Below, piece after piece: positions 14,331 to 17,106 of a DNA stretch of 17,106 nucleotides; the first letter of the stretch is position 1; each line of letters opens with the position of its first letter. The position numbers and the translations under genes are program-made. The stretch lies in contig CACYDK010000224.1 of assembly GCA_902773155.1 (NCBI GenBank), positions 1 through 17,106 on the forward strand, read 5' to 3'. Source of the DNA: an uncultured Ruminococcus sp. (lineage in GTDB: Bacteria; Bacillota; Clostridia; Oscillospirales; Acutalibacteraceae). The notes beneath the pieces were generated by a model. It did not search any database, was not told the origin of the DNA, and saw nothing but the letters and a program-made list of their open reading frames with translations.

Positions 14331-16049
14331 ATGGATTATTTGGGTAATTATAATTTATGGCTCGAGAAGGCGACCGAGGACGCCGACCTCGTAAAGGAGC
14401 TTAAGGAAATAAACGGTAATGACAAGGAGATTTACGAGCGCTTCTACAGAAGCCTGCAGTTCGGCACAGCCGGACTCAGGGGCATCATAGGAGCGGGCAC
14501 AAACAGGATGAATATATACGTTGTTCGTCAGGCCACTCAGGGTATGGCGAATTACGTGCTCAAGAAATACGGCAAGGGCGCTGTTGCGATTTCACACGAC
14601 AGCAGAATCAAGGCCGACCTCTTTATGAACGAGGCCGCAAGAGTTTTGGCCGCCAACGGTATTAAGGTTTACATTACCTCGGAGCTTCAGCCGACTCCGG
14701 TACTCTCGTATCTTGTGCGCTATTTTGGATGTCAGGCCGGTATTATGGTAACAGCAAGCCACAACCCTGCCGCCTACAACGGATATAAGGCTTACGGCGA
14801 GGACGGATGCCAGATGACTGACGCAGCCGCCGGAGCTGTTTACGACGAAATTCAGAAGCTCGATATCTTTGCGGATGTAAAGACGATGGATTTTGACGAG
14901 GCTCTCGACAAGGGTCTCATTGAATATGTCAAGGACGAGGTTTACACAAGCTATCTCGACGAGGTCAAAAAACAGCAGATCAATCCCGGAGTCTGCAAGG
15001 ACGCCGGTCTAAAGGTCGTTTACACCCCGCTTAACGGCTGCGGAAACAAGCTCGTCAGAAGGATTCTCAAGGATATCGGCGTTGAGGACGTTACCATCGT
15101 TAAGGAGCAGGAGCTTCCGGACGGTAACTTTACCACATGCCCCTACCCCAATCCTGAGATCAAGGAAGCTCTCAGACTTGGCCTCGAAACCTGCGAAAAG
15201 GTTCAGCCTGATCTACTGCTCGCTACAGACCCGGACGCCGACAGAGTTGGAATCGCCGTTAAGGATTATGACGGCAGCTACAGGCTTATCTCCGGTAACG
15301 AGGACGGCTCCATGCTCACCGAGTTCATCCTCTCAAACCGCAAGAAGAACGGCACTCTGCCCGCAGAGCCCGTTATGGTCAAGACTATCGTTACAACCAA
15401 GCTCGTAGAAAAGCTCTGCGAAAAGTACAATGTTGAGCTTAAAAACGTACTTACCGGCTTTAAATACATCGGAGAGGTCATCCTTAATCTCGAAAAAGAG
15501 GGCAAGGAGGACAACTATGTGTTCGGATTTGAGGAGAGCTACGGCTATCTCGCCGGCTCATACGTAAGAGATAAGGACGCTGTTGTGGCTTCGATGCTCA
15601 TCTGTGAGATGGCGGCGACCTTTAAGAAGCAGGGCAAGACTCTCGCCGAGGTTATCGACGGACTGTATGAGGAGTTCGGCTACTACAAGAACACGACCCT
15701 CTCGTTTGAGTTCGCCGGCTCCGAGGGTATGCAGAAAATGGCCGAGATCATGAGCGCGCTCCGCGAAAACGCTCCCTCCGAGATCGCCGGCTACAAGGTT
15801 CTTAAAACCGCCGACTACAAGCTCAGCGTTGAGAAGGATCTCGCTACCGGACAGGAGAAGGAGATCAAGCTTCCGAAGTCGGATGTTTTCCAGTTCAACC
15901 TTGAGGGCGATAATATGGCTATCGTTCGTCCCAGCGGCACAGAGCCTAAGATCAAGCTCTACCTCACCGCTGTCGGCAAAGACAAGGACGACGCTCAGGT
16001 CATTACAGACAAGCTCGAGGCTTCGGTCAAGAGTATTCTGGGAATTTAA
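14331..16049 (+). CDS. pgcA: Alpha-phosphoglucomutase / phosphomannomutase family enzyme
   Basis: The enzyme moves phosphate between C1 and C6 of a hexose, most likely glucose-1-phosphate to glucose-6-phosphate, linking glycogen, UDP-glucose and cell-envelope sugar synthesis to glycolysis. The 572 residues match the long PgcA-type branch. FGTAGLRG lies at 44-51. The phospho-serine loop TASHNPAAYNGYK has Ser143. The metal-binding loop DPDADR is at 300-305 and the sugar-binding loop GFEESYGY at 399-406. The phosphate-binding loop RPSGTEPKIKLY is near the C-terminus. The ATG has AAGGAGG with 7-nt spacing. Substrate choice (glucose, mannose or a pentose phosphate) cannot be settled from the motifs. 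It forms a single-gene unit with a strong terminator. Confidence 0.93.
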   Translation: MDYLGNYNLWLEKATEDADLVKELKEINGNDKEIYERFYRSLQFGTAGLRGIIGAGTNRMNIYVVRQATQGMANYVLKKYGKGAVAISHDSRIKADLFMNEAARVLAANGIKVYITSELQPTPVLSYLVRYFGCQAGIMVTASHNPAAYNGYKAYGEDGCQMTDAAAGAVYDEIQKLDIFADVKTMDFDEALDKGLIEYVKDEVYTSYLDEVKKQQINPGVCKDAGLKVVYTPLNGCGNKLVRRILKDIGVEDVTIVKEQELPDGNFTTCPYPNPEIKEALRLGLETCEKVQPDLLLATDPDADRVGIAVKDYDGSYRLISGNEDGSMLTEFILSNRKKNGTLPAEPVMVKTIVTTKLVEKLCEKYNVELKNVLTGFKYIGEVILNLEKEGKEDNYVFGFEESYGYLAGSYVRDKDAVVASMLICEMAATFKKQGKTLAEVIDGLYEEFGYYKNTTLSFEFAGSEGMQKMAEIMSALRENAPSEIAGYKVLKTADYKLSVEKDLATGQEKEIKLPKSDVFQFNLEGDNMAIVRPSGTEPKIKLYLTAVGKDKDDAQVITDKLEASVKSILGI

Positions 16050-16062
16050 CTTAATAGTTTTA

Positions 16063-16090
16063 GCCGCAGAGGTTTTCCTCTGCGGCCTTT
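16063..16090 (+). terminator. Terminator of the phosphohexomutase gene
   Basis: A perfect 10-bp GC-rich stem (16063-16072 with 16077-16086, GCCGCAGAGG) has a TTTT loop and is followed by CTTTTCCTT. It lies 13 nt after the stop codon. On the minus strand the same stem lacks a good T-run, so it is only a weak candidate for ending the gene at 16120-16365. Confidence 0.88.
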
Positions 16091-16119
16091 TCCTTATCCG
16101 GTGGAAAAACACGCCCTGC

Positions 16120-16365
16120 TTACGCGGATATTTCCTTGTCGCTCTTCTCGACAAACCAGCGGTTATCCTCAAAAAATATAAATTTATCCTTGCCTGCTAT
16201 CCGGCAGGTGTAGCGCAGCCCTCCCCTTCCGCACGGCACCGAGCTGTAACGGATATCGGTGATCCGGTCAATCGTAAATTTTCGACCGTCCGACCAGTTT
16301 ATTGTCAGGGGGATCAGGTTTCCGTCCTCGTCGAATTCCGCCGTAACGCTGATATATTTTTTCAC
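16120..16365 (-). CDS. Small conserved-looking protein of unknown function, predicted SOS-regulated
   Basis: I do not recognise a named function. With a GTG start at 16365 the product has 81 residues, is soluble and likely beta-rich. It reads VTAEFDEDGNLIPLTINWSD (residues 6-25), then GRKFTIDRITDIR, a glycine stretch PCGRGGLRYTCRI, and KFIFFEDNRWFVE near the end. As far as I recall, small clostridial proteins of this pattern occur, some near Y-family polymerase genes; this is memory, not a search, and no polymerase is in the window. The GTG is chosen because GAGGTG lies 6-8 nt upstream. An ATG at 16383 is in frame but sits about 5 nt from the predicted transcription start and has no ribosome binding site. 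The promoter is full consensus and carries two LexA-like operators. Confidence 0.75.
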   Translation of the reverse strand: MKKYISVTAEFDEDGNLIPLTINWSDGRKFTIDRITDIRYSSVPCGRGGLRYTCRIAGKDKFIFFEDNRWFVEKSDKEISA

Positions 16366-16376
16366 TCCAAACACCT

Positions 16377-16390
16377 CGAACATCTGTTTG
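16377..16390. promoter_or_regulatory. Candidate LexA (DinR) operator, start-site proximal
   Basis: The plus strand reads CGAACATCTGTTTG. Against the Gram-positive LexA consensus CGAACRNRYGTTYG it has one mismatch among the defined positions. It covers the predicted transcription start near 16388. Bound LexA here would block RNA polymerase. Confidence 0.65.
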
Positions 16391-16394
16391 CTAT

Positions 16395-16423
16395 ATTATA
16401 AAACAAACGTTCGGGTTTGTCAA
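16395..16423 (-). promoter_or_regulatory. Perfect-consensus sigma-A promoter of the small unknown gene
   Basis: On the minus strand TTGACA (16423-16418), a 17-bp spacer and TATAAT (16400-16395) are an exact match to the sigma-A consensus. It is the only fully perfect promoter I found in the window. Such strength without repression would be costly for a small accessory gene, which fits the operators seen here. Confidence 0.9.
16400..16413. promoter_or_regulatory. Candidate LexA (DinR) operator within the promoter spacer
   Basis: The minus strand reads CGAACGTTTGTTTT: one perfect half-site CGAAC and one GTTTT half-site 4 nt apart. It matches CGAACRNRYGTTYG with two mismatches. It lies in the spacer between the -35 and -10 boxes, centred 23 bp from the second candidate operator, about two helical turns. 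Confidence 0.55.
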
Positions 16424-16436
16424 TGGCTTTTCAAGA

Positions 16437-16471
16437 AAAACTGTCCCGGAAAAACCGGGACAGTAATTTTT
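16437..16471. terminator. Terminator of the DUF2207 gene
   Basis: A perfect 9-bp stem (16441-16449 with 16455-16463, CTGTCCCGG) has an AAAAA loop. Read on the minus strand it ends in TTTTTC, so it terminates the gene at 16488. It also insulates the following LexA-like promoter from read-through. Confidence 0.87.
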
Positions 16472-16487
16472 TAAACTAAGGGGCGGA

Positions 16488-17106
16488 TTACCAGCTGCCG
16501 CCGCCTCCGCCGCCTCCGCCGCCTCCGGAGAAGCCTCCGCCTGAGGACGAAGCCGCCGAACGGGCGGACGCCGCCGCTCTGGCCGCGGCTGCCTGAGCGT
16601 TTATGCGCTTTATAGGCTCGCGGATATTGTTTCGGAGCATACTGTTGAGATAATAAGTCTCCCACAAAAGGGTTCTGTCGTAAGGCGAATACCAGCTCGG
16701 AGCCTTGACCGCCAGGCCGTCAAAGCGCTTGGACCACTTATCGAGCATACCGAATACCATGGCGTAAGGGAGGATCTCGTAGTAATAATCGGAGTTCTCC
16801 TCGAGCAGATACTTAAGCCTGTCGATCTCGGCGGTATCTATAAAGTCCTTGAGTCCGAGAAGCTTTCCGAGCATCTCGGCCCTGTACTCAGTATTCTGAG
16901 TCAGACCGGCCGCCATAATAGGAATCAGGATCGCCGCTCCCAGGGCTATATAATAGAACATAACCGGAAGCACCATCTCGTCCCGGTAAAGCGTAATTAC
17001 TCCGGCTGAGATACCTAAGCAAATCAACGCCATAAATCCGTAAACGATTTTTCCCTTGACCTTCTTGAACTTCTGACGCAGTCCGAAGGTGGTCATTACA
17101 CCAAAG
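16488..17106 (-). CDS. DUF2207-type membrane protein, C-terminal part (cut by window edge)
   Basis: The frame is open to the end of the window, and the ATG at 17096 looks internal, so only the last 206 or so residues are seen. Two hydrophobic segments near the visible N-terminus (around VYGFMALICLGISAGVITLY and VMFYYIALGAAILIPIMAAG) are transmembrane helices. A soluble helical domain follows, with LLGLKDFIDTAE, LLEENSDYYYEILPYAMVFGMLDKWSKRF and a tail SGGGFSGGGGGGGGGGSW. The LPYAMVFG-DKW-x-x-F segment and the glycine-rich end are typical of DUF2207 predicted membrane proteins, whose missing N-terminal half normally has a signal peptide and an extracytoplasmic domain. Function is unknown. Confidence 0.82.
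   Translation of the reverse strand, partial: FGVMTTFGLRQKFKKVKGKIVYGFMALICLGISAGVITLYRDEMVLPVMFYYIALGAAILIPIMAAGLTQNTEYRAEMLGKLLGLKDFIDTAEIDRLKYLLEENSDYYYEILPYAMVFGMLDKWSKRFDGLAVKAPSWYSPYDRTLLWETYYLNSMLRNNIREPIKRINAQAAAARAAASARSAASSSGGGFSGGGGGGGGGGSW
16498..16524. repeat. 9-bp tandem repeat in the glycine-tail coding region
   Basis: Three perfect copies of CCGCCGCCT lie end to end and encode part of the poly-glycine tail (GGA/GGC codons on the minus strand). Such a repeat can change copy number by slippage without breaking the frame. Confidence 0.85.

Follow-up and report, generated by a model that had tools for sequence, protein, structure and literature searches.

In this study, a promoter carrying two LexA-type boxes and the small gene behind it were analysed in a 17,106-nucleotide stretch of DNA (contig CACYDK010000224.1, numbered on the forward strand; hereafter the window) from an uncultured Ruminococcus sp. 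We propose, with a probability of roughly 0.8, that the element is a LexA-repressed SOS promoter driving an orphan ImuB-C-like subunit gene, whose product probably aids a UvrX-type polymerase or another fork protein. LexA control of the promoter is very probable and well supported at the sequence level, and the 81-amino-acid product is most probably related, though distantly, to the ImuB-C mutasome subunit.

A consensus promoter with two LexA-type boxes

The promoter lies near the window end on the minus strand (16423-16395) and matches the TTGACA-17-TATAAT consensus at 12 of 12 positions, with the -35 hexamer TTGACA (16418..16423, six of six matching) separated by a 17-bp spacer from the -10 hexamer TATAAT (16395..16400). 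Box 1, CGAACGTTTGTTTT (16400..16413, minus strand), is located within the spacer, its 12-base core abutting the -10 hexamer, and occupies the same place in relatives. Box 2, CAAACAGATGTTCG (16377..16390, minus strand; CGAACATCTGTTTG as read on the plus strand), lies 23 bp downstream, over the predicted transcription start, which is expected at about 16388 from the usual distance to the -10 hexamer. The operators overlap the promoter, as at LexA-regulated SOS promoters. The initial annotation had described such a promoter with one LexA-like operator in the spacer and another over the predicted start; both parts were borne out, down to the two mismatches (box 1) and one mismatch (box 2) to CGAACRNRYGTTYG, and the strand, missing from that description, is the minus strand. 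The region 16000-16560 contains two promoter-like sites, versus 0.3 ± 0.5 in shuffled sequences.

LexA and LexA-type boxes in the host genome and genus

The host genome has a single LexA match, carrying both the DNA-binding and the S24 peptidase domains, and the box TAAACAAATGTTTG is present at its own promoter, 115 bp before lexA. Weaker boxes precede recA (AGAAAATTTGTTCG) and uvrX (TGAATATATGTTCG, 45 bp before the gene). Across the genus, a box with at most two mismatches was found in 30 of the 31 lexA upstream regions examined (the best-scoring 30 loci and the host genome), and the operator type is common to the host's lexA (strong), its recA (weak) and the lexA regions of the lineage. The initial annotation had inferred LexA repression and held that absence of the motif from recA and lexA of the same genome would speak against it; a strong site was found at lexA and a weaker one at recA. 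The single LexA, the box at its own promoter and the recurrence of the layout at relatives of the small gene all support that inference.

A scoring matrix was constructed from 29 sites at the lexA promoters of other genus members, with the host's own lexA site left out. The two boxes ranked first (box 1, 15.64) and second (box 2, 14.71) in the window, followed by a position scoring 7.51, in a test that is partly circular because the training sites were selected by nearness to the known Gram-positive box. As estimated from 2 million random 14-mers, these scores have per-position probabilities of roughly 1e-6 and 2.5e-6. On the same scale, the host's lexA site scores 19.5 and its recA site 9.6, with 15.5 at a comM-like gene, 10.4 at uvrX and 6.6 at uvrB. 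In addition, the two sites of the window are the sole closely spaced pair among the 25 places in the genome that match the palindrome RAACRNNYGTTY, one pair within 30 bp being found and 0.012 being expected.

Reading of genes by eye around other sites showed that the one scoring 15.5 lies 50 bp before a comM/yifB-like gene (G000:C63:2140-2151; L183:1501) and faces a sigma-factor-like gene on the opposite side, and that the weak site at uvrB lies 49 bp before that gene (G000:C4:1145-1156; L179). In L018 and L036, uvrB, read in the same way, has a box-plus-TATAAT promoter and lies near the polymerase operon. L036 belongs to Ruminococcus bromii ATCC 27255, a cultured relative that has the operon form.

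Recurrence of the promoter at relatives of the gene

Relatives of the small gene were collected as 80 loci from a scan of species genomes. In 63 loci the upstream open reading frame (ORF) is polymerase-like; 52 of these have a box with at most two mismatches between -250 and +400 of the ORF start, and several of the 11 that lack one are truncated by a contig end. Of the 17 other loci, 9 have such a box no more than 300 bp from the small gene. Random 200-bp windows of the same loci had a box in 5.3% of cases, a rough comparison because they span less sequence. The strict pattern RAACnnnnGTTY-TATAnT was found in 29/61 operon-type loci and 6/19 other loci; all 35 have a -35-like hexamer (4-6 of 6 matching) at a spacing of 17, and in 32 of them a second core follows 24-32 bp downstream. 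A scan of all 1.4 million strand-bases of these loci gave 43 occurrences of the strict pattern, and the eight sites outside the searched regions include the promoter of the polymerase of L015 and two that precede uvrB.

Within the clade of the window, ten orphan promoters were read (the window, L113, L107/L037 taken as one genome, L022, L033, L117, L118, L246, L247 and L248), L022 and L033 having been placed in the clade by the tree alone. The layout with a 17-bp spacer is present in all ten, in its strict form in nine and with GAATC in L247; L113 and L037 have no recognisable second core.

The 81-amino-acid gene and its family

The first gene downstream of the promoter (16120..16365, minus strand) encodes an uncharacterised protein of 81 amino acids from a GTG start. 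This start, at 16365, is tentatively preferred because homologues begin there with MKKY or MKQY; an in-frame ATG at 16383, within box 2, is disfavoured for the same reason. At an expectation value (E) of 1, neither Pfam nor NCBIfam gave a match for the protein. Its family profile matches 5181 database proteins at E 1e-3, and the named proteins among the 120 matches listed are all called hypothetical. The family alignment (A3) has 62 rows: four loci were excluded in advance, 56 rows come from the remaining 76, and the window, P0002, P0003, P0004, P0008 and P0011 complete the set. W70 is invariant in it.

Nine of the 80 loci have no upstream ORF. Among the 71 upstream ORFs scanned, 61 match the Y-family polymerase domain PF00817 and two are phosphoglucomutases; the linkage to translesion polymerases thus holds in relatives and not for the copy in the window. 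The linked polymerases mostly end in a conserved tail, NPKxxHxIHPVGYF. Sixteen loci were entered into a survey of this tail and 12 were read (a regular-expression search gave no ORF in L225, L228, L236 and L237), one of which, L121, gave an implausible frame. The tail is present on five polymerases, every one from a genome with the small gene, and absent from six: three in genomes without a strong small-gene match, that of L124, which adjoins a divergent copy, and two additional polymerases from genomes that also encode a tail-bearing one. This distribution suggests that the small protein docks on the polymerase.

In the window, a terminator-like hairpin (16440..16464, minus strand) separates the promoter from an upstream DUF2207-type gene, and the small gene is therefore probably transcribed alone. 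A probable Shine-Dalgarno sequence, GAGG, is located at 16374..16377 on the minus strand. The small gene is convergent with the phosphoglucomutase gene pgm (14331-16049), and a second terminator-like hairpin, scored on the plus strand only, lies between them (16063..16086). At 16488-16560, the DUF2207-type gene closes with a run of glycines, GGGFSGGGGGGGGGGSW.

Resemblance to ImuB-C

The predicted structure of the window protein is all beta, with seven strands and a predicted local distance difference test score (pLDDT) of 85. A structural model for DUF6504, the Pfam family of ImuB-C (pLDDT 89), has a similar strand order, its first strand being broken and its third and fourth merged. Comparison of the family profile with that of DUF6504 gave a probability of 52% and E 1.5e-4 over 67 colinear columns, and the local profile score was reached by none of 200 column shuffles. 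The small protein shares with the domain a length of about 80 residues, a predicted all-beta fold and a conserved C-terminal Trp. At E 0.001, no solved structure matched either model, in agreement with the published remark that ImuB-C appears to be a new fold (PMC12926913). The protein was not filed as a DUF6504 member, the Pfam model not matching it, and is named ImuB-C-like. YolD (PF08863) is also absent among the families matched by the 62 members at E 1, and membership in YolD was rejected. A mutasome-subunit identity is suggested by the polymerase linkage, the shared tail and the remote structural likeness together.

Orphan state and polymerase distribution

The polymerase context was surveyed in 60 genomes of the genus, using a threshold of at least 79 bits for the small gene and dividing the polymerases into short and long classes by match span and ORF length. 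The small gene is present in 31 genomes, and in 25 of them it directly follows, on the same strand, a Y-family polymerase of the short, YqjH-sized class. The long, UvrX type is found in none of these 25 genomes versus 29 of the 35 others, the remaining six having no polymerase match. Among the 31 genomes with a completeness of 90% or more and a contamination of 5% or less, the long type is present in 0 of 14 versus 17 of 17, a split for which a p-value would mislead because the genomes share ancestry. The remaining six strong copies, including that of the window, are orphans in genomes with the long type. In the host genome, the searches recovered only an unlinked polymerase of the UvrX type and none of the YqjH type.

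The genomes of L022, L033 and L037 likewise have the long type only. A direct search of ten orphan genomes with a YqjH-type polymerase recovered the distant long type (24-32% identity). G027 alone also has a 120-amino-acid piece of a YqjH-type polymerase, at 55% identity and inside a contig (L249, G027:C48), which looks like the remnant of a lost partner. Seven other genomes that were searched all have short-type matches (fragments only in G266). Outside the clade, a solo copy is no proof of a lost partner, because the copy of L015 lies about 0.6 kb behind its polymerase.

The tree was built from 77 rows, obtained by omitting seven of the 80 loci and adding the window, L113, L117 and L118; L246-L248 are not among them. 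In this tree, which has few columns and an unsettled bootstrap, the orphans of the clade occupy about four places: the window with L113 (99/93), L022 and L037 with the operon copy L014, L033 beside operon copies, and L117 with L118. The orphan copy adjoins pgm in four genomes: in the window the two genes converge, and in L022, L037/L107 and L113 they lie in tandem.

A divergent copy of the small gene (about 60 bits) is located upstream of the long polymerase in six genomes of the genus. It was read in five of them (L241-L245; the sixth is G044), in three within about 40 bp of the UvrX-type polymerase and in two about 0.9 kb upstream. The host's own uvrX is followed by a divergent YolD-like gene (L007:185-592; 20.5 bits, below the Pfam cut-off).

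Proposed mechanism and alternative explanations

LexA dimers bound to box 1, between the -35 and -10 hexamers, and to box 2, over the transcription start, would obstruct RNA polymerase. Upon DNA damage, RecA-stimulated cleavage of LexA would free the consensus promoter. The product would be a free-standing, all-beta protein from a family whose genes elsewhere are mostly found behind a YqjH-sized Y-family polymerase, with a promoter of the same kind, and it would probably assist the unlinked UvrX-type polymerase or another fork protein during damage-induced synthesis. That UvrX is its partner in the host genome is our guess, which draws on the divergent copies found next to UvrX genes and on the either-or pattern of polymerases. 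We further suggest, tentatively, that the subunit is the lasting part of an SOS mutagenesis module: the YqjH-type polymerase may have been exchanged several times for the UvrX type in the genus, with the small ImuB-C-like subunit kept under its own two-operator promoter and now serving the new polymerase in trans.

Several observations weigh against the proposed reading. The motif is not enriched in the window at up to three mismatches (40 matches versus 41.0 in shuffles), and RAACRNNYGTTY has no overall excess in the whole genome, with 25 places versus 33 for the backwards control. The host's recA and uvrX boxes score below those of the window, as does its uvrB site. The three loci with a close divergent copy have no LexA core anywhere in the stretch read, which counts against shared SOS control there, and a polymerase may have been missed in a host genome that is 94% complete. 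The link to ImuB-C is remote: profile comparison with an earlier DUF6504 alignment gave a probability of 28% (E 6e-4), the weak global profile score was equalled by 4 of 200 shuffles, DUF6504 (PF20114) is absent among the Pfam matches of the 62 family members at E 1, and no DUF6504 match was found in the host genome. The window copy also departs from nearly invariant columns in one loop, with a gap at 41, P for K at 44 and R for G at 47.

The lack of overall palindrome excess, in window and genome alike, would fit a constitutive promoter with a palindrome-like sequence, but the scarcity of expected pairs, per-position probabilities near 1e-6 and a layout that recurs in relatives make a chance resemblance extremely improbable. 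Hardly more probable is that the boxes serve a different repressor, for instance a LexA-like regulator belonging to a mobile element: a few genomes of the genus do have a second, weak PF01726 match, but the host has only one LexA match and the same type of box at its own lexA promoter. Two other explanations accept the boxes and differ on the gene. The small protein might be a DNA- or damage-binding factor working without a polymerase partner, in line with the proposal by Aravind and colleagues that ImuB-C binds DNA (PMC3765255); this is a lesser possibility, against which the restriction of the polymerase tail to genomes with the small gene argues. A serious rival, rated slightly lower still, is that LexA control is real and the orphan gene is a relic on its way to loss, left without a role once its polymerase was gone. 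The orphan genomes of the clade, in which no YqjH-type polymerase was found beyond the piece in G027, the long branches of L117 and L118, the altered loop of the window copy and a stop within the match of G046 would all fit such decay. The other orphan copies of the same scan, however, have no stop in the match, and the orphans, in their separate places in the tree, still have a promoter close to the consensus, with one box or, in most cases, two. A LexA-controlled gene for a working ImuB-C-like subunit remains the preferred explanation.

Relation to known SOS systems

The known targets of Gram-positive LexA (DinR) include lexA, recA and uvrB (PMC4234289), and translesion polymerases are among them (PMC3998124). 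The latter article also used Bacillus subtilis LexA on sites from the gut. The window shares with these SOS promoters the GAACnnnnGTTC-type operators at the promoter and the presence of LexA, and differs in having one core abutting the -10 hexamer in a 17-bp spacer, a second over the start and an uncharacterised orphan gene behind. Standalone ImuB-C has been published beside DinB, DnaE2 or UmuC plus YolD (PMC3765255) and coupled to YqjH-type polymerases of Clostridia (PMC6511836). As described in these two sources, it resembles the small protein in its length of about 80 residues, mostly beta structure, conserved C-terminal Trp and linkage to Y-family polymerases and SOS control; in contrast, the small protein has only remote profile similarity without a PF20114 match, and the window copy has neither a linked polymerase nor a YqjH-type polymerase found in its genome. 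The YolD/YqjX subunits of UvrX/YqjW polymerases are likewise small, SOS-controlled companions of a Y-family polymerase, and in Staphylococcus aureus yolD and uvrX are unlinked, both with LexA sites (PMC6511836). The host genome differs in additionally having a YolD-like gene beside uvrX.

Biological significance

The promoter itself appears to be an ordinary, very clear SOS promoter; the gene that it drives is less ordinary. The analysis suggests that a large unnamed family belongs to the damage-induced mutagenesis set of gut Clostridia, and provides natural cases in which a presumed polymerase subunit persists without a linked polymerase. The either-or pattern of polymerases within one genus makes the role of an ImuB-C-type subunit testable across related species.
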